Source: Oscillospiraceae bacterium
GTDB lineage: Bacteria > Bacillota > Clostridia > Oscillospirales > Oscillospiraceae
Assembly: GCA_024697625.1 (NCBI GenBank)
Contig: JAILFJ010000095.1
Coordinates: 1 to 54,549, forward strand
Direction: 5' to 3'
Length of the DNA stretch: 54,549 nt
A model generated the notes under the pieces. That model saw only the letters and a list, made by a program, of their open reading frames with translations, did no database searches and was not told the DNA's origin. Shown piece by piece: positions 32,774 to 54,422 of the stretch (positions are counted from its first letter, which is position 1; every line of letters starts with the position of its first letter). The translations under genes were made by a program, and so were the position numbers.

Positions 32774-35185
32774 ATGTATGCCTACGTCATATCGGTGAAG
32801 GGACAGCTGGTGTGCCTGTGCGTGCTGTTGTTTATCGCAAGGACGTACTTCTCGGCACCGCACCGAAAGACCACCGCCCACAGGCTGTTTTCGGCGCTGA
32901 TTGCGGTCTCAGTGGTCAATCTGGTCTTTGACATGACGACGGTCTATACCATCAACCATGTGGACATGATCCCGATGCGCCTGAACCATTTCTTCCACAT
33001 CATCTTTGTGTCAAGCATCGTGACCGTGCTGTTCATCATCTTCATGTACGTACGCATCCTGGCCTACGGCGAACAGCCCTTCCGGCTCTACTGGCTGATT
33101 CCGCTGGTGCTCTCTCTTGCGGCTGTCACGCTGCTTCCCTTTGAGTATACGGTGGGAGAATATACCAACCATTCCTCCGGCCCTTATGCGACGGTCGCCT
33201 TTGTATGCGGCTATATCTACTGTTTCCTGATCATGTATATCCTGATCCGACGCGGCCAGTCGATGCAGAAGAAGTTCCGGCAGGCGATCCTGATCTCGAT
33301 CTGCATCATGCTGTTTGTGACGGTGCTGCAGGGAATTTTTCAGCAGCTTCTGATCTCCGGCGTCGGCGTGACCATCATCTGCGTCGCGCTGTTCTACACG
33401 GTTGAGAGCCCGGACGCGCTGCTGATCGAAAAGCTGGAGGTGGAGCGCAGAAACGCCGAGAGTGCCAACCGGGCGAAGAGCGACTTCCTGGCGAACATGT
33501 CCCACGAGATCCGCACGCCGATCAATGCCGTGCTCGGCATGAACGAGATGATCCTGCGGGAGAGCCGGCAGGCCGGAAACCTGACGGACGGGTCGGCGGA
33601 ACCGCTGCAGACGGCGCTGCAGAACATCAGGGTATACGCCGGCGACGTGGATAGCGCCGGACAGAATCTGCTGGCCATCATCAACGATATCCTGGACTTC
33701 TCGAAGATCGAAGCCGGCCGGATGGAGCTCGCGGAAGCGCCGTACCAGCTGAGCTCCGTACTGAACGACGTCAGCAACATGATTCTCTTCAAGGCCCGGG
33801 AGAAGGGACTGGACTTCGCCGTCGACGCAGACGCGGAACTCCCGGATCTGCTCTTCGGGGACGAGGTCCGTGTGCGGCAGGTTATCACAAATATTCTTAA
33901 CAATGCCGTCAAATATACGGAGCACGGCTCGGTGCACATGACGGTGCGCGGTGACATGCCGGACGGAGAGACGCTCCGGCTGACCGTCTCTGTAAAGGAT
34001 ACGGGCATCGGCATCCGGGCGGAGGATCTGGACCGGCTGTTTACCAAGTTCCAGCGCCTGGATATGGTGCGCAACAGCACGGTGGAGGGGACAGGGCTCG
34101 GCCTCGTGATTACGCAGAGCCTGCTGGCGATGATGGGCGGCAGCATCGAGGTGCAGAGCGAGTACGGCAAGGGCTCGGTCTTTACGGCTGTGATCCCGCA
34201 GAAGATCCTGTCCGCAGCGCCGATCGGTGATTTTCAGAAGCGCTTTGAATCCAGCCTGCGCGAGGCCGAAGCCTATCGGGAGACCTTCCGGGCGCCGTCA
34301 GCCCGGATCCTGATTGTGGACGACACCAGGATGAACCTGACCGTGGCGATCAGCCTGCTGAAGGACACCTGCATGCAGATTGATACCGCCGCCAGCGGCG
34401 CGGACGCCGTTGCGCTGGCGGAGAAAACGGCCTATGATGTCATCCTCATGGATCAGCGTATGCCGGAGATGGACGGCACCGAGGCGCTGAACCGGATCCG
34501 GAGCGATGCGGAGGGGCGGAACTGCAGGACACCCGTCATCTGCCTGACCGCAGATGCCGTGATCGGGGCGAAGGAACGCTATATCTCGGAGGGCTTTTCG
34601 GATTATCTGACCAAACCGATCAACAGTCAGGCGCTGGAGAAGATGCTGATGAAGCATCTTCCGAAGGAGAAGCTGAGTGTCGTCCGGGGACAGAAGGAAG
34701 AGGCGAGTGCCGGTGCTCCGGGAGAGACAGATGCCCGCGGCGAAGTAGAGGCTTTCGCCTCGCTCCGCACAGCGGAGATTGACCCTGCGATCGGCCTCAG
34801 CTACTGTCAGAACGACGAGGGCTTCTACCGCTCCATCCTGCGCGACTATGCGCTCAGCGCCCGGGAGACGGACGAAAAGCTGCGCCGATACCGCAGGGAT
34901 CAGGACTGGAAAAACTATGGGATTCAGGTCCACGCGCTGAAGAGTACGTCAAAGATGATCGGCGCGGAGCGACTGGCCGGGCTGGCTGCCGAACAGGAAG
35001 ACGCGGCGGGGGCGGGGGACAGAGAGCGGATCTCTGATGGCTTCGAGGAACTGATGAGCCTCTACGCGATGACCCTGGAAGCCATACGCGGTCTGTGGAA
35101 GGAGAATGTTTTGGATTTCGACGGGGCGGCTGCGCCGGAATTCGGGGAAGACGGAGTCCTTGAGTTCCTGCCGGAAGAGCCCTGA
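32774..35185 (+). CDS. Membrane hybrid sensor histidine kinase with REC and HPt (second of three)
   Basis: An 803-residue protein. The first ~215 residues form about seven transmembrane helices with short loops (7TM sensor region, for example SIVTVLFIIFMYVRILAYG). The cytoplasmic core is HisKA with His244, HATPase (ITNILNNAVKYT; VKDTGIGIRAEDLDRLF; GTGLGLVI), REC with Asp560 (ILMDQRMPEMDGTEALNRIR) and HPt with His720. The core is co-linear with the genes on both sides, while the sensor is unrelated to that of the first kinase. The ATG follows GGGGGGATGAGATC. The sensor ligand is unknown. Confidence 0.9.
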   Translation: MYAYVISVKGQLVCLCVLLFIARTYFSAPHRKTTAHRLFSALIAVSVVNLVFDMTTVYTINHVDMIPMRLNHFFHIIFVSSIVTVLFIIFMYVRILAYGEQPFRLYWLIPLVLSLAAVTLLPFEYTVGEYTNHSSGPYATVAFVCGYIYCFLIMYILIRRGQSMQKKFRQAILISICIMLFVTVLQGIFQQLLISGVGVTIICVALFYTVESPDALLIEKLEVERRNAESANRAKSDFLANMSHEIRTPINAVLGMNEMILRESRQAGNLTDGSAEPLQTALQNIRVYAGDVDSAGQNLLAIINDILDFSKIEAGRMELAEAPYQLSSVLNDVSNMILFKAREKGLDFAVDADAELPDLLFGDEVRVRQVITNILNNAVKYTEHGSVHMTVRGDMPDGETLRLTVSVKDTGIGIRAEDLDRLFTKFQRLDMVRNSTVEGTGLGLVITQSLLAMMGGSIEVQSEYGKGSVFTAVIPQKILSAAPIGDFQKRFESSLREAEAYRETFRAPSARILIVDDTRMNLTVAISLLKDTCMQIDTAASGADAVALAEKTAYDVILMDQRMPEMDGTEALNRIRSDAEGRNCRTPVICLTADAVIGAKERYISEGFSDYLTKPINSQALEKMLMKHLPKEKLSVVRGQKEEASAGAPGETDARGEVEAFASLRTAEIDPAIGLSYCQNDEGFYRSILRDYALSARETDEKLRRYRRDQDWKNYGIQVHALKSTSKMIGAERLAGLAAEQEDAAGAGDRERISDGFEELMSLYAMTLEAIRGLWKENVLDFDGAAAPEFGEDGVLEFLPEEP

Positions 35186-35221
35186 GCGGACCACAGGTTC
35201 AGACGGAACAGGGGCACAGCT

Positions 35222-37642
35222 ATGTTTGAATTCATAAGACTCCACCAGCTCAACATCATGCTCTCGCTGAGCAGTACCTGCGGCATCACGGCGGTCTTTG
35301 TGATGCTGACAGGAAAGCCGAGCCGAAAGAAACGGGCGCTCTTCCTGCTGGAGGTGGCGGCTACGATCCTGCTCGCGTCCGGCCGGCTGGCCTTCCTCTA
35401 TGCAGGGGATACCAGCATGCGGGGATACCGGATGGTGAGGATCTTCAATTTTCTGGATTTTTCGATGGTCCTGGCAACCCTTGCCGCCTTTGTCCTGTAC
35501 CTGAAGGAGATGTTCACCGACAGAGGCCTGGAACGCAGGCTGATTCTGTTCCGGGTGACGGATATCCTGCTGACCGTGGGCGGGGTTCTGATTGTGGTCT
35601 CGCAGTTTACGGGGCTGTATTATACCTTTGACGAGGCAAACCAGTACCACCGGGGAGCCGGGATCGTACTGGGCTTTGCCATACCGATGGTCACGATCCT
35701 GATCCTGATCGCGCTGATCATAAGATACTATACGTACCTGTCGAAGAACATGCGGCTGGCCCTGCTGCTGTTCGTGACCGTGCCGCTGATTGCGTCGGCC
35801 GTTCAGCTCTTTACTTACGGGGTTGAGACGGCCAACATGACGATTGCATGCATGGCCGTGCTCCTGTATATCTTCGATCTGATGGATGTGTACCGGACTG
35901 CGGATCTGTCGGAACGTGCGATTGCAGCGAACGAGGCCAAATCCGAGTTCCTGGCACAGATGTCCCATGAGATCCGCACGCCGATCAACGCAGTGCTGGG
36001 TATGAACGAAATGATCCGCCGGGAGAGCCGGAAGGCGGAACTTCTGGCAGACGGCGACACGGCAGGTGTGCGGGACGCGCTTCGGAACATCGGCAGCTAT
36101 GCCGATGATGTGGAGAACGCCGGCAGCAGCCTGCTCGCCATCATCAATGACATTCTGGACTTCTCGAAGATCGAGGCCGGCCGTATGGAGCTGGTCGAGG
36201 CGCCTTACCGGCTTGGGGCGATGCTCAGCGACGTCGGCAACATGATTCTGTTCAAGGCCCGGGAGAAGGGGCTGGAGTTTGACGCCGACGTGGACGGAGA
36301 GCTTCCCGACCGGCTGTGCGGCGATGAGCTCCGTGTGCGGCAGATCATCACCAACATCCTCAACAACGCGGTGAAGTATACCGAGCGGGGCTCTGTCCGG
36401 ATGACCGTGCGCGGAGAGACCCGGGAGGACGGTGTGCTGCAGCTGAGGGTGGCTGTGCAGGATACGGGCATCGGGATCCGGACGGAAGACCTGGACAGGC
36501 TGTTCGGCAGATTCGAGCGCCTGGATCTGAACCGGAACAGCACCGTCGAGGGGACCGGGCTGGGCCTTGTCATCACACAGCACCTGCTGGAAATGATGGG
36601 CGGAAGCATTGAGGTGCAGAGCGAGTACGGCAGGGGCTCGGTCTTTACGGTTACGATCCCGCAGAAGACGGTATCCGACGAACCGGTCGGGGAGCTCGGG
36701 GAGCGCTTAGAGACCGGAACATCAGAAACAGGAAGCTTCCGCGAGACCTTCCGCGCACCCTCGGCCTGCATCCTGATCGTGGACGATACGAGGATGAATC
36801 TGACCGTGGCAGTCAGTCTGCTGAAGGACACCCAGCTCCGGACCGACACCGCCGGGAGTGCCGCGGACGCCATCGCACTGACGGAGAAGAATCCCTATGA
36901 TGTCATCCTGATGGACCAACGTATGCCGGAGATGGACGGCACCGAAGCCATGAAGCGCATCCGGGCAGCCAGAAACGGCAAAAACCGGGAAACCCCCGTC
37001 ATCTGCCTGACGGCGGATGCCGTGATCGGGGCAAAGGAGCGCTACCTGGCCGAGGGCTTCTCGGATTACCTCAGCAAGCCGATCGACAGCCGGGCGCTGG
37101 AGGCCATGCTGCTGAAGTACCTGCCGAAGGAGAAGGTTACCGTGATTCGGGAAGAAAGGCCGGCAGCGGAAAAGACCGGCAGCCCGGAAAGAGAGATGCG
37201 CCCTGTCGGAAGCGGGGTGTCCGCAGAGCTCCGGAAGGCGGGGATCGACCCGGATATCGGGTATCTGTACTGCCAGAACGACGGGAGCCTCTATGCTTCG
37301 ATCCTGCAGGACTATGCTCTCAGCGCGCGGGAAACGGACGAAAAGCTGCAGCGCTTCTATGAGGCGCAGGACTGGAAAAACTATGAGATTCAGGTCCATG
37401 CCCTGAAAAGCAGCTCAAAGATGATCGGCGCGGAGAAGCTGGCCGGGTTGGCGGCCTGTCTGGAAACGGCCGCGGGCAGCGAAGACAGCGCCGCGATCCG
37501 CGAGAGGCATAAAGAACTGATGTCGCAGCATGAGGCGACAGTCCGGGCCATCCGGAGCCTGCCTCTGAGCCCAGGGACCGAAACCGCCGTAGCGGCCGAG
37601 GCCGATGAGGAGATCCTGGAATTCATCCCGGAGGATCCGTGA
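35222..37642 (+). CDS. Membrane hybrid sensor histidine kinase with REC and HPt (third of three)
   Basis: An 806-residue protein with about seven N-terminal transmembrane helices in the first ~225 residues (LLTVGGVLIVVSQFTGLYY; GIVLGFAIPMVTILILIALI). Then follow HisKA (His249, QMSHEIRTPINAVLGMNEMI), HATPase, REC (Asp565) and HPt (His726, VHALKSSSK). The sensor is like that of the second kinase in topology but not in sequence. The gene begins 36 bases after the previous stop, in one operon. The C-terminal tails of all three kinases end in an EILEFxP-like motif (EILEFIPEDP here), a shared short acidic tail of unknown meaning. Confidence 0.9.
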   Translation: MFEFIRLHQLNIMLSLSSTCGITAVFVMLTGKPSRKKRALFLLEVAATILLASGRLAFLYAGDTSMRGYRMVRIFNFLDFSMVLATLAAFVLYLKEMFTDRGLERRLILFRVTDILLTVGGVLIVVSQFTGLYYTFDEANQYHRGAGIVLGFAIPMVTILILIALIIRYYTYLSKNMRLALLLFVTVPLIASAVQLFTYGVETANMTIACMAVLLYIFDLMDVYRTADLSERAIAANEAKSEFLAQMSHEIRTPINAVLGMNEMIRRESRKAELLADGDTAGVRDALRNIGSYADDVENAGSSLLAIINDILDFSKIEAGRMELVEAPYRLGAMLSDVGNMILFKAREKGLEFDADVDGELPDRLCGDELRVRQIITNILNNAVKYTERGSVRMTVRGETREDGVLQLRVAVQDTGIGIRTEDLDRLFGRFERLDLNRNSTVEGTGLGLVITQHLLEMMGGSIEVQSEYGRGSVFTVTIPQKTVSDEPVGELGERLETGTSETGSFRETFRAPSACILIVDDTRMNLTVAVSLLKDTQLRTDTAGSAADAIALTEKNPYDVILMDQRMPEMDGTEAMKRIRAARNGKNRETPVICLTADAVIGAKERYLAEGFSDYLSKPIDSRALEAMLLKYLPKEKVTVIREERPAAEKTGSPEREMRPVGSGVSAELRKAGIDPDIGYLYCQNDGSLYASILQDYALSARETDEKLQRFYEAQDWKNYEIQVHALKSSSKMIGAEKLAGLAACLETAAGSEDSAAIRERHKELMSQHEATVRAIRSLPLSPGTETAVAAEADEEILEFIPEDP

Positions 37643-46154: not shown

Positions 46155-47054
46155 ATGTATTACAGCAGACCGGTCAGAGTTTTTCTCGGGATTCTTTTCC
46201 TGGCGTTTTTTGCCTGGTATATGCACACGCATTTTGCGGGGGCGACGATGAGCAATGACGTCGGGAAGGCACAGCCCGCTGCATCCGTGCAGACGGTCCA
46301 GGCCGAGCTGCAGCCCCAGGAGGCGGAGCCTGTGGAGCCGGAGGCGGTTCCCACGCCGGAGCCCACACCGGAGCTCAGTCCGCTCATGCAGACGGCGAAG
46401 GCCAACGCGGATGCGAAGGGGCTTCCGATGCCTCCGGAGATCGATATCGACGACTTCCAGTACATCCTGGTAAACGGGGATCACCCGCTGGATCCCATCA
46501 ACTATGAGCCGTCCAGCTTTGCCTACCTGAACATGACCGGCGAGGACACGGAGGTCCGCACGGGCTATGACCCGAACCGCCAGCAGGTGGATTATCGGAT
46601 CGGACAGCCGCTGGTGGACATGACCCAGGCCTGCAAGGCAGCTGGGAACCCGATTTATCTCTCGTCCGGATATCGCAGCTACAACGATCAGCAGCAGAAC
46701 TTTGCCCGCGTATGCTACAACAACGGCATCACGGACGGCAAGAATGCCGAGGGCAACTATATCACGATGCCAGCGGGCTGCAGTGAGCACCAGACCGGCC
46801 TGTGCTGCGACATTACGGACAGATACTACGAGATCAAGAACGACAGCATCGCAGAGGTTCCCACGGTGCAGTGGCTGGCGCAGCACTGTGCGGAATACGG
46901 CTTTATCCTTCGGTTCCCCCAGGATAAGCGGGATATCACCCATGTCATGGGAGAGTCCTGGCACTTCCGCTATGTCGGTGTGGAGGCAGCTCAGTATATG
47001 ACGGAGAACAACCTCGTCCTCGAGGAGTTTGTCGCGCTGTACGGCGTGGCCTGA
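46155..47054 (+). CDS. VanY-like D-alanyl-D-alanine carboxypeptidase (M15B), membrane-anchored
   Basis: A 299-residue protein with an N-terminal anchor (residues 8-28), a proline/glutamate-rich linker (about 50-75) and an M15 peptidase domain. The zinc ligands and catalytic Glu are complete: SEHQTGLCCDI (His, Asp) and GESWHFRYVG (Glu, His). The family trims the terminal D-Ala from peptidoglycan stem peptides outside the membrane. Its 3' neighbour, 29 bases on, is a paralogue with an altered active site. Confidence 0.88.
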   Translation: MYYSRPVRVFLGILFLAFFAWYMHTHFAGATMSNDVGKAQPAASVQTVQAELQPQEAEPVEPEAVPTPEPTPELSPLMQTAKANADAKGLPMPPEIDIDDFQYILVNGDHPLDPINYEPSSFAYLNMTGEDTEVRTGYDPNRQQVDYRIGQPLVDMTQACKAAGNPIYLSSGYRSYNDQQQNFARVCYNNGITDGKNAEGNYITMPAGCSEHQTGLCCDITDRYYEIKNDSIAEVPTVQWLAQHCAEYGFILRFPQDKRDITHVMGESWHFRYVGVEAAQYMTENNLVLEEFVALYGVA

Positions 47055-47083
47055 TGTGATCACGGGAAAGCAGATAACAGCTC

Positions 47084-47920
47084 ATGCGGATCGTATGTAA
47101 CAGCAAGATAAAGCAGAGCCTGTGTTTCGTCCTTCTGATATCTCTGATGCTCTGCCTCTGCGCCTGCCAGATCGGAAGACCCGAACCCGCCCCGACCCCG
47201 ACCCCGGAGCCGACTCCGACACCGACACCGGAGCCCACCCCGGAACCTGTTCCGACCCTGCCGCCGCCTCCCAACCTCGATATCACGAGCTGGGAATTCA
47301 AGCTGGCAAACTCCTACAACTCCATCGGGGTGGATTACATCATCCCGCACAGCTCCCTCAACTATCTTGAAGGACAGGAGATGTACCTCAACATCTATGA
47401 CGCTGCGGATTCCTTCCTCAAGGCGGCCCGGGCGGCCGGCTTCGAAGTCTGGATCAGCGTAGCCTACCGGAACAACGAGTGGAACAACACCATGTTCATG
47501 AACGCGCTGTACGCGGCGGACAACGATCCGGTGCTGGCGTCCACGCAGGTGCTGGCGCCGGGACTCAGCGACCATCAGACAGGGCTGGCGATCGACTTCA
47601 GTGACAAGGGCTCCTACAGCGGCTACTACGGAGAGTTTGAAGATCCGGAGATGGCGGATACCGAGCTGCTTGCCTGGCTAAAGGAGCACTGTGCGGAGTA
47701 CGGCTTCATCTTCCGCTACCCGGAGGGGAAGGAAGATTTCTACGGCGTGAAGTGCAAGCACCCCGCCCACTTCCGCTATGTCGGACAGGAAGCCGCCCGC
47801 TACATTACCGAGAACAACCTCTGTCTGGAGGAATTCCTGATGATGTATGACGGGACGGAGGTCTATATCCCCGAAGCCGGTTACGGAATGAGGATCGATG
47901 AAAGAAGAAACCAGAAATAA
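47084..47920 (+). CDS. VanY-like M15 lipoprotein lacking the catalytic Glu
   Basis: A 278-residue lipoprotein. The signal peptide has lipobox LCLCAC (Cys at about 27-28), and a PTPEPT-type proline linker precedes the M15 domain. Zinc ligands are kept (SDHQTGLAIDFS and the His of AHFRYVG), but the usual E-x-W-H reads H-P-A-H in KHPAHFRYVG. The general-base Glu is His and the conserved Trp is Ala. It may be inactive, have changed chemistry, or act as a binding/scaffold protein. Its stop overlaps the next gene by 23 bases. Confidence 0.85.
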   Translation: MRIVCNSKIKQSLCFVLLISLMLCLCACQIGRPEPAPTPTPEPTPTPTPEPTPEPVPTLPPPPNLDITSWEFKLANSYNSIGVDYIIPHSSLNYLEGQEMYLNIYDAADSFLKAARAAGFEVWISVAYRNNEWNNTMFMNALYAADNDPVLASTQVLAPGLSDHQTGLAIDFSDKGSYSGYYGEFEDPEMADTELLAWLKEHCAEYGFIFRYPEGKEDFYGVKCKHPAHFRYVGQEAARYITENNLCLEEFLMMYDGTEVYIPEAGYGMRIDERRNQK

Positions 47921-48763: not shown

Positions 48764-51043
48764 GGAAGATGCAGTTCTGCAGGAAAGCAGCCCGGATCGA
48801 TAATAACCCCGAAAAGCCTCTTGAACTAAGACCTGTCATGAAAGACGGTATACGACAGTCTCCTGCCTGAAGATGCTGAATACCGTATCTATATGGAACA
48901 AAGACAATGAAAATCTGTTATAACTGCTTCAAAGAAAACCGAATAAAGGACCCTGTCCTTTCTGCGGCTATGATGACAGCGATGCGGCAGAGAAATACCC
49001 TCTTGCTTTGAGGCAGGGCTCCATCCTGGAGGGGCGATACACTGTCGGGAGAGTTCTGGGGCAGGGAGGCTTCGGCATCACGTACATCGCCCTGGACGAC
49101 CAGACAAAAGAACGGGTCGCAATCAAGGAGTACCTTCCCACAGACTTTGCGGGAAGAAGCGAAGGATCCAGTATCGTCAGAGCTTTCTCCGGCAACAGAA
49201 GAGAGAACTTTGAGTACGGCAAGGAGCAGTTTCTCTCCGAAGCAAAGACGCTTGCCGCCTTCATAGGAGACAGCCATATCGTCCGGATCTACAGATATTT
49301 CGAGGAGAACGGAACGGCATACTTCTCGATGGAGTATGTGGATGGTCTGCCCCTGAACAGATATATGAGGGAGAAGGGCGGAAGGCTTACAGCAGAAGAT
49401 GCGAACCGTCTGCTTCTGCCGCTGATGGACTCGCTGGACCGGGTGCACGCAAAAGGCATCGTCCACCGGGACATTGCCCCGGACACATCATCATCCAGCC
49501 GGATGGAAGTGCGAAGCTGATCGACTTTGGGGCTGCGCGTTACAGCACGGGTGAGAAGAGCAAGAGCCTGGACGTGGTGCTGAAGCACGGCTTTGCCCCG
49601 AAGGAGCAGTATATCCGCCGGGGCCGGCAGGGGCCGTTCACGGATGTCTATGCGATGGGCGCGACATATTACTATGCGCTCACGGGAAAGATACCGCCGG
49701 AGGCCATCGAGCGGATGGACGAAGAATGCCTGATTCTTCCGAGTACGCTCGGGACGGGATTAGACGAACCTACTGAGGAAGCCCTTCTGAAAGCGCTGGA
49801 GGTGAGCGCACCGGACCGCTGGCAGAGCATGGCGGACTTCCACAATGCACTTTTGGAGGCGGAGCTGCAGACTCGCAGAGACGCTCTTGGGGAAAGGGAG
49901 AGGGAGCGCGGACATCGCAACGGTGAGGAACCCGAACGAAGACAGCGCGAGACAGCAAATCAGGCAAGATCTGCGGAGTCGGAGCGCAGGAGTCGGCGGA
50001 ATGCCAGAGAAACTGCGGAAGGTGCAACGGCTGACGCAGCGGAACACCAGCGCCGTGAGAATGAGGCGATAGAACGTCAGTATCAGAAGATCGATAACGG
50101 AAAGCCGCAGGCGGAATCTACATCTCATGAGTCAGCGAGAAAGAGCGGCGGGAAAAAGGTTCTGCCGATCCTGCTGATCCTGCTTGTCGCAGCAGTCGGA
50201 GGGTTCTTCGTTATGCGCTCAAGGAGTACTCCGGCAGTCCCGAAGCAAACCGCTGAAGTGACAGTGACGACAGCGCCGACAGCAACGCCTGTGACGCCCG
50301 CAGAAACTCTCGAACCGACTCCGGCGCAATCGACAGAAGCGACATCTACCGCAACGCCGACACCGAAGCAAGAGCCGCTCCCAACGGTGGAACCCACAGA
50401 AGCACCGACACCTTCGGTTACTGCCCCGACACCGGCACAGACGCCGATATCAACGCCAACACCCACACCCACGCAGACTCCCTCACCGAGTGCGGCGCCA
50501 ACACCAACACCGACGCCCGAACCTGCACCAACACCCTCTCTCGCTCCGATTACGCCGTCCTCCGAACAGAAATCCAGAATTGACATGGAGGTTGGAGATA
50601 TTGTCATCTTCGGTCATTATGAGCAGGACAACGATACAGCCAACGGAAAAGAAGAAATCGAGTGGCAGGTGCTGAATGTGCAGGGAGATTCGGCACTTCT
50701 GATCAGCCGATTTGGACTTGACACAAAACCATATCATACAGAACGCACCAGCGTGACATGGGAAACCTGCAGTCTTCGTTCCTGGCTGAACAGCGACTTT
50801 CTGGAGGAAGCATTTGGTGCAGATGAACAGACGGCAATCCTGACAACTGCTGTGGACAACAGCCAGAGTCAGGGAAACAGCGCTTGGAAGATGAGCGGCG
50901 GTATTGATACACAGGATAAGGTCTTCCTCTTGAGCTATCAGGAAGCAGGAGACTGTTTTGGTGCTGACAGTGTTAGAGTATGTAAGCCGACGAAATACGC
51001 CAAAGCAAACGGAGCTTATGTCAGCACGAACGGAAATGGCAGG

Positions 51044-51163
51044 TGGTGGCTGCGGTCCCCCGGCCGCGATTCGAACAACGCTGCGGATGTCGACATCGAC
51101 GGCTCCGTCCACGGATACGGCAACTATGTCAACTACGACGATGACGCCGTCCGCCCCGCTTTC
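51044..51163 (+). repeat. Candidate variable region, first DUF6273 domain
   Basis: From WWLRSPG to RPAF, 40 codons dominated by NNC/NNT codons for Asp, Asn, Tyr, Ser and His (for example AAC-AAC, GAC-ATC-GAC, AAC-TAC-GAC-GAT-GAC). It is homologous to 52058-52174 and 54249-54365. The pattern fits a diversity-generating-retroelement target. Confidence 0.45.
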
Positions 51164-52057
51164 CGGATCAATCTTGAATCTGACATCATCCAATCTGTTA
51201 TCCGGAAAGGAAACACCATCGACTCATTGATTTCCGAGGGAATTGAAAAGCTGGAAACAAAAGATCTGGCCGGAGCAGAAGTGGCTTTCTCAATGGCTGC
51301 GTCCTTTGAACTTTCCAAGGAGCAGCTCGAGAGGATAAAGGAGGGCTGGTACAGCGCAGGGATCATACTTAGAGATTCTGAAGATTGGGACAATGCTATA
51401 AAGGCGTTTACTGAAGCGGGCGATTACAAAGACGCTACCGAACAGATTGAACAGATTCTGGAAGACATATACCAAATGGCAGAACGGCTGCGTGAAGCCG
51501 GTGACTACGGAGAGGCGATGAAGCTGTATGCGGAAATTGCCGATTACAAAGACGTTGCAGAACGTATCAAGTCGCTCAAAACCATTTCGGCCTCTTCCTG
51601 GAAGGTGGGGGGCACGGTCTTCTTCGGGAAGTATGAGCAGGACAATGACAGGGCGAACGGGAAGGAAGATATTGCCTGGAAGATCCTCGCTGTAGAAGGT
51701 GACAAGGCCCTGCTTATCAGCCAGTACGGACTGGATGCGAGAAGCTATCATACAACAAGCGCCAGTGTAACCTGGGAATCCTGTTCACTGCGGAGCTGGC
51801 TGAACGGAGAATTCCTGAATCAGGTGTTCTCTTCCAAAGAACAGGGCGCCATCCTGACAACTGAGATCTTTAATCACACCGGTCAGTTGAACCCAGAGTG
51901 GAGCACCTACGGCGGAAACAAGACACAGGATAAGGTTTTCCTGCTGAGCTATCAGGAAGCAGAGCGTTACTTTGCGAATGATGATGCCAGAATGTGCAAG
52001 CCGACGGCCTATGCCCAGGCAAATGGAGCCACTGTTTTCGGTGAAGGGAACTGCAGG

Positions 52058-52174
52058 TGGTGGCTACGGTCGCCGGGCGAGAATCAGCGCCGTGCTGCCC
52101 TTGTGAGCAGTAATGGCTATCTTGGCTACGGCTTCAGCGTGCACGATGTCCGCAGTGTGGTTCGCCCCGCTTTC
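52058..52174 (+). repeat. Candidate variable region, second DUF6273 domain
   Basis: 39 codons from WWLRSPG to RPAF, the same length as the copy at 54249 with no gaps; 19 of 39 residues differ between the two while flanking RPAFWLNLESD is identical. 18 of the 19 differing codons here end in a pyrimidine. Confidence 0.45.
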
Positions 52175-52241
52175 TGGTTGAATCTGGAATCTGATACCTT
52201 CTAATCAGTTTTATGCGTTTTGAAGGATGGTTTGAGACACA

Positions 52242-54395
52242 ATGTTAATCTGTTACAGCTGTTTCCGGAAAAAACCGAATAAAGGACCCTGCCCCTTCTG
52301 CGGCTATGATGACAGCGACGCGGCAGAGAAGTATCCGATTGCTCTGAAGCAGGGAGCGACCCTCAACGGACGTTATACCGTCGGACGGGTTCTGGGCCAG
52401 GGCGGCTTCGGGATCACGTACGTCGCCTATGATGACCGGACACAGACCCGGGTGGCGGTCAAAGAGTACTATCCCGCGGAGTTTGTTGGAAGAACACAGG
52501 GCACCTGTATGGTGCAGGTGCATTCTGAGAACCAGCGGGACAACTTCAACTACGGAAAGGAACAGTTCCTCTCTGAAGCGAAGACCCTGGCGGAATTCAT
52601 CGGAGACGAGCACATCGTCCGGGTCCACAGCTACTTTGAAGAGAACAACACTGCGTACTTCACGATGGAGTACGTGGAAGGTCTGCCGCTGAACAAGTAC
52701 ATGTTGGAGCGCGGCGGGAAACTCAGTGTGGAGGAGACCAACCGGCTTCTCCTGCCGCTGATGGACTCGCTGGACCGGGTACATGCAAAAGGAATTGTCC
52801 ACCGGGACATCGCCCCGGATAACATCATCATCCAGCCGAATGGAAGCGCAAAGCTGATTGACTTCGGCGCGGCACGCTACAGCACGGGAGAAAAGAGCAA
52901 GAGCCTCGACGTGGTGCTGAAGCACGGCTTTGCCCCAAAGGAGCAGTATATCCGTCGCGGACGGCAGGGTCCTTTCACGGATGTCTACGCGATGGGAGCA
53001 ACTTATTACTATGCCCTTACGAGGAAAATACCGCCGGAGTCCATCGAACGGATGGACGAGGAATGCCTGATTCTTCCGAGCACCCTTGGCACGGGAATTG
53101 ACGAACATACTGAGGAAGCGCTTTTGAAAGCGCTGGAGGTAAGTGCGCCGGACCGCTGGCAGAGCATGGCGGGCTTCCATAACGCGCTTCTGGAGGCGGA
53201 GCTTCAGACCCGCAGGGGTGCCCTTGAGGAGCGGGAAGCCGAGCGACGGAAGAGAGAGACGGAAGAGCAGACACGCCGCGAGGCGGAGGAGAAAGCCAGA
53301 GCGGAAGAAGAACGGCAGCGCCGCGAAGCGGAGGAAAGGGCCCGTGCGGAACGAGACCGCCGCGAAGCGGAAGAAGCGGAGCGAAAAAAAACAGCCATTC
53401 GACAGCAAACAACAGAAGCGTCGAAACCGGTCGGCAGAAGGAAAAAGATTATTCCAATTCTGCTGATTCTTGCGATTGCGGCAATCGGCGGCTTCTTCAT
53501 CCTGCGGCAGAAAGGGTCTACTGCTGTACCGAAAGAAACCGGCTCGGTGACGGCGACTGCGACTCCGGGAGTGACATCGACACCAAAGGCGACGCCAACC
53601 CCCACACCTGCGCATACGCCGACTGCGACACCTGCCCCGACTGCTACGCCTGCATCTTTGCCCACGCCAACCCCAACCCCAACACCTACATCTATACCCA
53701 CACCCACGCCCACGCCTGCCACCCCTAAACCGGATTCTGCAGTTACTCCAGCGACTGAGAAAAAACAGGGCTCATATTCCATCGGAGATATTGTTTCCTT
53801 TGGGCACTACGAACAGGACAACAACCCATCGAACGGCAAGGAAGCGATCGAATGGCTGGTTCTGGACGTACAGGACAACAAGGCACTTCTGATCAGCCGG
53901 TACGGTCTGGATGCAAAAGCTTATCACGATAAGTTTGAAGATATTACCTGGGAGAACTGTACACTTAGGACATGGTTGAATAATGACTTTATAAATGCGG
54001 CTTTCAGTGCAGATGAGCAGAAAGCGATTCTGACAACAACTGTGGACAACAGCAAGGGGCAGGGGAACAGTGCATGGAGCACGAATGGCGGAAACAATAC
54101 GAAGGACAAAGTGTTTCTGCTGAGCTACAAGGAAGCAGAGGATTGTTTCTCCGGTGATAATGCCAGAATGTGTAAGCCAACAGAATATGCCCTTGCAAAT
54201 GGCGCATATACCTATAGTGGAGAAGGTAGATCCAACGGTAATTGCTGGTGGTGGCTGCGGTCGCCCGGTGAGATTCAGGACTACGCTGCGCGTGTGGGTA
54301 CCGGTGGTTTCCTTGGCTCCAGCAGCGTTGTGAACTACGGCAACACTTCGGCGCGCCCCGCTTTCTGGTTAAATCTGGAATCTGACATCTTCTAA
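52242..54395 (+). CDS. Membrane Ser/Thr protein kinase with extracellular DUF6273 domain
   Basis: A 717-residue protein. A zinc ribbon (ICYSCFRKK...CPFCGYDD, residues 3-25) precedes a kinase domain (about 40-300: LGQGGFGITYVAYDD, VAVKEYYP, HRDIAPDN, LIDFGAARYS; catalytic Asp, Asn and DFG present). Then come an E/R/A-rich coiled coil (about 325-395), one transmembrane helix (about 402-420), a TPTPT-type linker (about 430-505) and a DUF6273 domain (about 515-717, ending WWWLRSPGEIQD...RPAFWLNLESDIF). The kinase faces the cytoplasm and the DUF6273 domain the outside, suggesting a receptor kinase. GAAGGATGG lies upstream of the ATG. It is an intact tandem paralogue of the broken gene at 48908. 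The kinase substrate is unknown. Confidence 0.85.
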   Translation: MLICYSCFRKKPNKGPCPFCGYDDSDAAEKYPIALKQGATLNGRYTVGRVLGQGGFGITYVAYDDRTQTRVAVKEYYPAEFVGRTQGTCMVQVHSENQRDNFNYGKEQFLSEAKTLAEFIGDEHIVRVHSYFEENNTAYFTMEYVEGLPLNKYMLERGGKLSVEETNRLLLPLMDSLDRVHAKGIVHRDIAPDNIIIQPNGSAKLIDFGAARYSTGEKSKSLDVVLKHGFAPKEQYIRRGRQGPFTDVYAMGATYYYALTRKIPPESIERMDEECLILPSTLGTGIDEHTEEALLKALEVSAPDRWQSMAGFHNALLEAELQTRRGALEEREAERRKRETEEQTRREAEEKARAEEERQRREAEERARAERDRREAEEAERKKTAIRQQTTEASKPVGRRKKIIPILLILAIAAIGGFFILRQKGSTAVPKETGSVTATATPGVTSTPKATPTPTPAHTPTATPAPTATPASLPTPTPTPTPTSIPTPTPTPATPKPDSAVTPATEKKQGSYSIGDIVSFGHYEQDNNPSNGKEAIEWLVLDVQDNKALLISRYGLDAKAYHDKFEDITWENCTLRTWLNNDFINAAFSADEQKAILTTTVDNSKGQGNSAWSTNGGNNTKDKVFLLSYKEAEDCFSGDNARMCKPTEYALANGAYTYSGEGRSNGNCWWWLRSPGEIQDYAARVGTGGFLGSSSVVNYGNTSARPAFWLNLESDIF
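54249..54365 (+). repeat. Candidate variable region, DUF6273 domain of the intact kinase
   Basis: 39 codons from WWLRSPG to RPAF. Relative to 52058-52174, differing codons are mostly changed in the first two positions, and 17 of 19 end in a pyrimidine. It lies 30 bases before the stop codon, the usual 3' position of a variable region. Confidence 0.45.
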
Positions 54396-54422
54396 TCTTT
54401 ATTATCCTATATGGGTATCGGC

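Follow-up and report, generated by a model that had tools for sequence, protein, structure and literature searches.

A kinase with a DUF6273 sensor is the target of a diversity-generating retroelement in an Oscillospiraceae bacterium

We analysed a stretch of 54,549 nucleotides, here called the window, from an Oscillospiraceae bacterium (GenBank assembly GCA_024697625.1, contig JAILFJ010000095.1, positions 1 to 54,549 of the forward strand), the genome of which is 89% complete. Two related kinase genes, K1 and K2, and the truncated end of an IS1595-type insertion sequence (IS) lie at the end of the window (Table 1). K1 is frameshifted in its kinase part, which is split over the ORFs at 49008-49520 and 49574-52204 and matches K2 in two frames, at 48927-49487 and 49475-50434. 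Three DUF6273 domains, proposed in the initial annotation of this DNA, were recovered by Pfam, two in the ORF at 49574-52204 and one in K2. The ten window proteins that were scanned were metabolic, cell-wall or regulatory.

Table 1. Positions of the kinase genes, their domains and variable blocks, and the IS end in the window
Feature	Position	Strand	Evidence
K1 5' part: N-terminal kinase piece, out of frame with the remainder	49008..49520	+	Pkinase E 2.8e-18; split match to K2
K1 3' part: rest of broken kinase domain, membrane segment, two DUF6273	49574..52204	+	ORF; DUF6273 twice; split match to K2
VR1: internal block, apparently an old variant	51044..51160	+	Against TR2: A 17/35, non-A 16/82
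VR2: block at K1 3' end, apparently an old variant	52058..52171	+	Against TR1: A 22/33, non-A 19/81
K2, 717 aa: kinase domain, predicted membrane segment, Pro/Thr-rich linker, DUF6273 ending in VR3; retroelement target gene	52242..54395	+	ORF; Pkinase E 2.8e-31, DUF6273 E 9.9e-32
K2 protein kinase domain, residues 45-272	52374..53057	+	Pfam PF00069 (domain match)
Predicted K2 membrane segment	53442..53498	+	Kyte-Doolittle hydropathy peak 2.1 over 19 residues
K2 DUF6273 domain, C-type-lectin-like fold	53874..54374	+	Pfam; model of 53754-54392, pLDDT 93; fold matches
VR3, variable region	54249..54362	+	Adenine-specific mismatches to TR1; repeat with TR1 extends over 54247-54365 (BLAST)
IS1595-type insertion sequence end, cut by contig end	54411..54549	.	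Repeat copies, intact copy and flanks, transposase domains

The PF00069 match identifies the kinase domain of K2 as Hanks-type. Its single hydropathy peak, detected with a simple Kyte-Doolittle scan rather than a topology predictor, lies between the kinase and DUF6273. In this arrangement of Hanks-type kinase, membrane segment and sensor beyond, K2 resembles the PASTA-type receptor kinases (PknB/Stk1), but its sensor is DUF6273 and not PASTA. The best NCBIfam match, PknB_PASTA_kin, scored 155.9 bits where the family cut-off is 450, too low for K2 to count as a PASTA kinase by this score, and the Pfam scan detected no PASTA domain in K2.

The initial annotation had taken the blocks between WWLRSPG and RPAF in the three DUF6273 domains for targets of a diversity-generating retroelement (DGR). 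Our recount for the last two blocks gave the same figures: equal length, 19 of 39 residues different, and C or T at the third base in 35 of the 38 differing codons, compared with 71/130 in the remainder of the same two domains (Fisher p 1.5e-5). A location at the 3' end of the gene holds for the blocks at 52058 and 54249 and not for that at 51044, which is internal and followed by approximately 1 kb of the same gene.

The contig of the window lacks a reverse transcriptase (RT), as had been noted, and the two RVT_1 matches of the genome are on contigs C38 and C24. A search of the genome, proposed in the initial annotation, thus yielded two RTs, each in a cassette of Avd, template and RT, together with a template carrying adenine-specific mismatches to the block at 54249. 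This template, TR1, lies on C38 (G000:C38), flanked by the gene for an Avd-like protein on one side and that for a DGR-type RT on the other. Between TR1 and VR3, 19 of the 33 template adenines and one of the 81 other bases were changed, without gaps (p 7e-12); the sole non-adenine change is at a third codon position, with no differences among the non-adenine bases at positions 1 and 2. The TR1 adenines occupy first, second and third codon positions 15, 17 and 1 times, respectively. The adenines were replaced by G in ten cases, T in five and C in four, and this was counted in favour of a DGR, for which G is described as the commonest and C as the rarest substitution (PMC3521204). In addition, VR3 lies near the 3' end of its gene within a C-type-lectin-like fold, as is expected of a DGR target, for which a C-type-lectin or an Ig fold is typical. 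Since TR1 accounts for the block at 54249-54362, K2 is a true target of a DGR.

Ordinary diversifying selection on lectin loops, with no retroelement involved, would agree with the strong divergence of the blocks in three paralog pairs (identity 0.27-0.34, compared with 0.76-0.77 in the flanks), and may account for many DUF6273 kinases elsewhere and for part of the old blocks described below. However, it leaves unexplained why a template lies between Avd and RT and differs from VR3 specifically at adenines, and bias is absent from several further DUF6273 blocks in this genome, for example C154:8911 (15/32 versus 38/79). Selection alone is thus refuted for VR3, although not for VR1 and VR2, and we give this explanation almost no credence.

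The cassette on C24 likewise consists of Avd, a template (TR2) and RT, and 20 of 31 adenines but only 1 of 80 other bases differ between TR2 and its neighbouring target. The RT of this cassette carries LGNQTSQ, an exact fit to the motif (I/V/L)GxxxSQ described for DGR RTs (PMC3521204), while that on C38 carries MGNQTSQ, with M in the first place. Both Avd proteins matched NCBIfam DivGenRetAVD (E 1.5e-11 on C38, 2.5e-14 for the second cassette), in each case below the cut-off: the C38 protein scored 44.6 against a cut-off of 80, and 28.2 against 40 for Pfam bAvd, for which the second Avd reached 40.6 bits. The homing signals of DGRs are a GC-rich 3' end common to template and variable region, followed by a stem-loop. 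TR1 and VR3 are identical over their terminal 18 bases on the 3' side and 23 bases on the 5' side; no stable fold was found in the folded stretch 3' of VR3, which includes IS sequence.

The window ends within the IS1595-type element, the intact copy of which is 991 bp long, and C38 ends in the opposite end of the same element in a fitting orientation. Directly before the IS end at 54411 is a 10-bp duplication, ATTATCCTAT, and the same 10 bp are present in the flank on C38 (10/10); among 100 flank pairs, four matched 10/10, two of which were AT-only and prone to chance. The opposite IS ends and the shared duplication indicate that K2 and the C38 cassette are probably in cis. Most likely, the cassette follows immediately after K2 in the downstream direction, on the same strand and separated from it by the IS, which broke the assembly, and the resulting order of K2 variable region, IS, Avd, TR1 and RT is probably the usual cis order. 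We infer this adjacency (C166-C38) from the contig ends. Action in trans, as initially proposed, with C38 elsewhere in the chromosome, would suit the separate contigs of K2 and the cassette as well as the remote targets with clean template pairs in two other genomes (G755 and probably G756), but in view of the IS ends and the matching target duplication it is probably wrong, and we consider it improbable.

The two blocks of K1 gave a different result, so that the proposal of DGR targets stood for the K2 block and not for those at 51044 and 52058 as present targets of the two templates of the genome. Against these templates, adenine-specific mismatches were not found: even the best comparisons left the non-adenine differences listed in Table 1, and 12 of the 19 in VR2 fall on third codon positions. 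Templates from other genomes were tried and rejected as sources, the test covering ten Asn-rich candidates, among them TR1 and TR2 and the doubtful L224. The best for VR1 was the L095 template (A 16/36, non-A 14/81, 12 of these 14 at third codon positions), and for VR2 the lowest non-adenine counts were those of TR1 and of L106 (19/77). VR1 and VR2, both within the frameshifted K1, have the appearance of variants that were written long ago and have since drifted. Current targeting of both blocks through a third template would be compatible with the incomplete assembly and with six kinase blocks in which columns with at least three bases are concentrated at TR1-adenine positions (21/33, versus 5/81 elsewhere). 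Against this, only TR1 and TR2 were found among 28 matches to the DUF6273 profile and in searches with both templates as DNA queries, the non-adenine drift is largely at third codon positions, and the paralogs C11:3913-5925 and C88:787-2889 share nearly the same block (4/39 residues differ, 25/240 in the kinase part). We therefore assign such current targeting a low probability.

The genome contains 14 kinase DUF6273 blocks, and eight related ones have drifted. We tentatively suggest, as somewhat less probable than not, one hot locus, K2, beside the retroelement, and a frozen archive in which copies of earlier variants were locked and kept by selection. The archive would hold no fewer than eight additional ectodomain blocks of kinases, of which K1 has two and C11 and C88 three each. 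Five blocks in two C88 genes (49894-53751 and 53732-56902), with weak or absent adenine bias (p 0.006 to 0.6), were left out of this reading.

VR3 might also have been written recently by an element that has since become dormant or died, perhaps upon the IS insertion, which may have disturbed the retroelement; K2 would then be approaching the fixed condition that its paralogs have reached. This would agree with the IS between target and cassette, with the drifted blocks, and with the close homologs: in 8/8 pairs with flank identity of at least 0.87, the kinase DUF6273 block was approximately as conserved as the flank, and none was hypervariable. The latter is a weak test, since it covers only the listed 120 of 3840 homologs (69 with the motif), among which there was no near-identical K2 homolog from another genome, and since the clustering of the database at 90% hides the closest variants. 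Conversely, 80 of the 81 non-adenine bases of VR3 are still those of TR1, and the RT and Avd frames are open; dormancy is accordingly rated as unlikely, though a serious alternative.

Clean template-target pairs with the same cassette type were detected in five of ten relatives' genomes and also in G176. The closest relatives (L090, L092 and L113) have the order target, Avd, RT, while in 13 of the 61 loci examined by tblastn a DUF6273 match follows the RT instead. No kinase was found beside any other cassette by tblastn in these 61 loci (two of them own) or by motif in 25 loci, 17 of which are also in the tblastn set; many of the loci are short. Kinase-DUF6273 genes are present in the genome of one relative (G753) away from its searched cassette contig (L232 by Pfam, L249 by motif only). 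Four related clostridial cassettes (L090, L093, L094 and L096) lie near genes for TIR-DUF6273 proteins, which have the sensor domain and the Avd and RT relatives in common with K2 and carry TIR in place of the kinase. The pair was clean for L094 (G751; A 21/34, non-A 0/83) and weak in the L090 genome (16/28 and 11/83); the L093 block was masked, and no template was found in the L096 genome. Within the genus, an RT match at 1e-40 or better was present in 6 of 102 genomes, the own included, the other five being 34-37% identical.

Taken together, K2 very probably combines a Ser/Thr-type kinase, one predicted membrane segment and a C-type-lectin-like DUF6273 sensor, with VR3 as the variable region of a DGR, the cassette of which is most likely directly downstream. 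TR1 RNA would be copied to cDNA by the RT with Avd, with errors at adenines, and this cDNA would replace VR3, which makes up the final 38 sensor codons, so that binding residues would change while the scaffold stays fixed. The sensor would lie beyond the membrane segment, and binding would alter kinase output; we infer the topology, the present activity, the outside ligand and the effect on output. The binding specificity of the receptor could thereby change.

For cyanobacterial DGRs, variable proteins that combine a kinase with a CLec domain are described (PMC7517822), similarly with an N-terminal Ser/Thr kinase, a C-terminal C-type-lectin-like domain ending in the variable region, and paralogs both with and without a template match. 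As far as that description goes, K2 differs in its clostridial origin, its DUF6273 sensor and the membrane segment between kinase and sensor, most of the cyanobacterial proteins being predicted as cytosolic. DUF6273 itself is a described DGR target in phages, in tentaclins (PMC10743442) and Faecalibacterium prophages (PMC11792537), where the variable region likewise lies in DUF6273 with a modelled C-lectin-like fold; those targets are virion receptor-binding proteins, whereas K2 is a kinase. The DGR targets of Thiohalocapsa, described as putative antigen sensors (PMC10907252), include CLec with TM, TIR and protein kinase among their domains, and there also IS elements shape the loci and trans action is discussed; by that description, they are set apart as gammaproteobacterial and by other target domain families. 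DGR kinases and DUF6273 targets are thus already known, and the combination of kinase, predicted membrane segment and DUF6273 sensor under a DGR in Clostridia is a new variant.

With programmed hypermutation joined to an apparent transmembrane kinase in Clostridia, the triggering signal could change while the phosphorylation pathway is kept. The paralogs on C11 and C88 provide a natural gradation between sensors written lately and sensors fixed long ago, by which ligands can be tested comparatively, and the four cassettes near TIR-DUF6273 genes link the sensor module to possible conflict signalling. If the archive reading is true, the bacterium would have built a receptor repertoire by mutating a sensor in a programmed way, duplicating it and fixing the copies. 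Such a repertoire might serve to sense competitors, phages or the surfaces of a host, as might the TIR-DUF6273 proteins encoded close to related cassettes.

A search of the genome holding the window (3.55 Mb, 181 contigs, 89% complete) for the reverse transcriptase (RT) of the diversity-generating retroelement (DGR) proposed in the initial annotation detected two RTs, on contigs C38 and C24. Both lie in one-stranded cassettes of an Avd-like gene, a template block (TR1 on C38, TR2 on C24) and then the RT, and both templates read WWLRSPG, numerous Asn codons and RPA. The Avd-like proteins matched NCBIfam DivGenRetAVD with E values of 1.5e-11 (C38) and 2.5e-14 (C24), both under the family cut-off, and Pfam bAvd with 28.2 and 40.6 bits, respectively (cut-off 40). 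The RT motifs are MGNQTSQ (C38) and LGNQTSQ (C24); the DGR RT motif is (I/V/L)GxxxSQ in the available part of PMC3521204. The DUF6273 profile matched 28 places in the genome, namely 26 domains and the two templates. The C24 cassette belongs to a second complete DGR, whose target and TR2 form a clean A-only pair with 6 gap columns (p=3e-13). Large proteins on C75 and C87 (L205, L203 and L204) carry DUF6273 followed by LRR_5 repeats, with DUF4132 in two; no membrane segment was detected in them by hydropathy.

Every WWLRSPG–RPAF block was aligned to both templates, and changes were counted at template adenines (A) and at other template bases (non-A). VR3, the block of gene K2 (kinase, predicted membrane segment, DUF6273), aligned to TR1 without gaps and with strong adenine bias (p=7e-12), ten adenines being changed to G, five to T and four to C. 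The 33 adenines of TR1 are distributed as 15 at codon position 1, 17 at position 2 and one at position 3; codon position alone does not explain the pattern, because none of the non-A bases at positions 1 and 2 was changed. TR1 and VR3 have identical ends of 23 bases (5′) and 18 GC-rich bases (3′). K2 is nearly certainly a DGR target. The proposal that three blocks are targets stands for VR3; for VR1 and VR2, both in the frameshifted paralog K1, it is not supported with TR1 or TR2 as template, given their non-A changes. Adenine bias was absent in some other DUF6273 blocks, for example on C154.

Coordinates of features and adenine test of blocks (fractions are changed/total template bases; G-numbers denote other genomes)
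Feature	Location	Content	A	non-A
K2 ORF (+)	52242-54395	protein kinase domain, one DUF6273
K1 3′ part ORF (+)	49574-52204	two DUF6273 domains
VR1	51044	versus TR2	17/35	16/82
VR2	52058	versus TR1	22/33	19/81
VR3	54249	versus TR1	19/33	1/81
DUF6273 block	C154:8911		15/32	38/79
Second DGR	L004:2061-6838 (C24)	target LRR_5, carboxypeptidase-regulatory-like, DUF6273; versus TR2	20/31	1/80
G751 pair	L094		21/34	0/83
G752 pair			20/36	0/81
G754 pair			20/32	2/79
G755 pair			20/39	2/78
G755 block	separate contig		20/39	1/78
G755, three further blocks				9/78, 23/78, 15/74
G756 pairs			21/34; 24/34	1/83; 0/83
G176		sixth clean case	22/35	0/79
G747 pair		weak, best match	16/28	11/83

The earlier counts for VR2 and VR3, which are of the same length with 19 of 39 residues different and with C or T ending 35 of the 38 differing codons, were reproduced exactly, whereas in the rest of the two domains 71 of 130 differing codons end in C or T (p=1.5e-5). 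The reported position at the 3′ end of the gene holds for two of the three blocks, but not for the remaining one. The kinase catalytic region of K1 (49008-49574) carries a frameshift, from either decay or sequencing error; a possible second shift near 48935 was judged by eye. The window also contains tandem VanY-type carboxypeptidase genes (46155-47920) and a tandem array of hybrid histidine kinases that carry receiver and Hpt domains (32774-37642).

The element had been expected to act in trans; it probably acts in cis, because the window and C38 end in opposite ends of one IS1595-type insertion sequence (IS) with a matching 10-bp duplication, ATTATCCTAT. On C25 the IS is intact, with a length of 991 bp, a transposase carrying both IS1595 domains and a 10-bp target duplication. 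Ten left and ten right flanks were compared, taken from the best-listed copies only (19 loci; 15 and 14 matches listed for the two ends), and among these 10/10 matches occurred in four of the 100 pairings: the intact copy, the window with C38, and two pairings that share a single AT-only flank. The orientation is consistent, with K2, IS, approximately 305 bp, Avd, TR1 and RT on a single strand. Nine related loci (L090, L092–L096, L106, L113 and L171) show the order DUF6273–Avd–RT, including all those with the closest RTs (L090, L092 and L113); in 13 related loci a DUF6273 match lies beyond the RT. Between IS and Avd, an 85-aa ORF (L001:3142-3399; no matches in a Pfam search) shows similarity (45% over 53 residues) to the C-terminal region of a 373-aa ORF located upstream of the L092 target, indicating earlier rearrangement at this spot. 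The cis layout K2–IS–Avd–TR1–RT is likely.

Six kinase blocks align to TR1 without gaps (VR2, two on C11 and three on C88), and at least three different bases were found in 21 of 33 TR1-adenine columns versus 5 of 81 other columns (p=2.8e-10). Third positions account for 12 of the 19 non-A mismatches to TR1 in VR2 and for 13/18, 9/15 and 11/17 in three other blocks; the share is lower in C11:5782 (7/16) and C88:930 (8/18). Protein-level differences between VR1 and the template of locus L095 are confined to Asn codons, with 12 of 14 non-A differences at third positions. The paralogs C11:3913-5925 and C88:787-2889 have nearly identical blocks (4/39 residues different; kinase part, 25/240). We read the six blocks and VR1 as variants that would have been written long ago and maintained by selection since, VR1 and VR2 probably being relics. 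Diversifying selection on binding loops could instead have concentrated the change in the TR1-adenine columns. The reading as old variants is weakened by L201:3895-10903 on C88, because adenine bias is weak or absent in all five blocks of its two kinases, one of which has three DUF6273 domains and the other two.

Among named genomes, the closest RTs are from Clostridia MAGs; 30 of the RT hits came with sequence, and ten genomes were compared. Clean template–target pairs were found in five of the ten (G751, G752, G754, G755 and G756). G748, G749 and G753 yielded no template, and the target block of G750 is masked. Proteins combining a TIR domain with a C-terminal DUF6273 are encoded close to the L090, L093, L094 and L096 cassettes; of these loci, only L094 has a clean pair. 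No kinase was detected beside the other related cassettes examined. K2 has 3840 homologs at 1e-20, and the block motif is present in 69 of the 120 listed. In eight of eight close pairs among these 120, block and flank are conserved to about the same degree, suggesting that at this distance most compared homologs are not undergoing rewriting; the test is limited by clustering of the database at 90%.

Of five papers found to mention DUF6273, two describe it, in their available parts, as a DGR target in phages. Kinase–CLec targets, mostly predicted to be cytosolic, are described in the accessible text of PMC7517822; these are cyanobacterial, whereas K2 is a clostridial kinase target. Cellular DGR targets are mostly membrane-anchored according to PMC8144416, the available portion of which lacks the word kinase. 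No title in the DGR and DUF6273 literature searched, with many subscription papers outside it, names a clostridial kinase target. As far as this literature extends, DGR-diversified kinases and DUF6273 targets are known, and the clostridial kinase target is new. Current activity of the K2 DGR and a putative tunable reception are both plausible.
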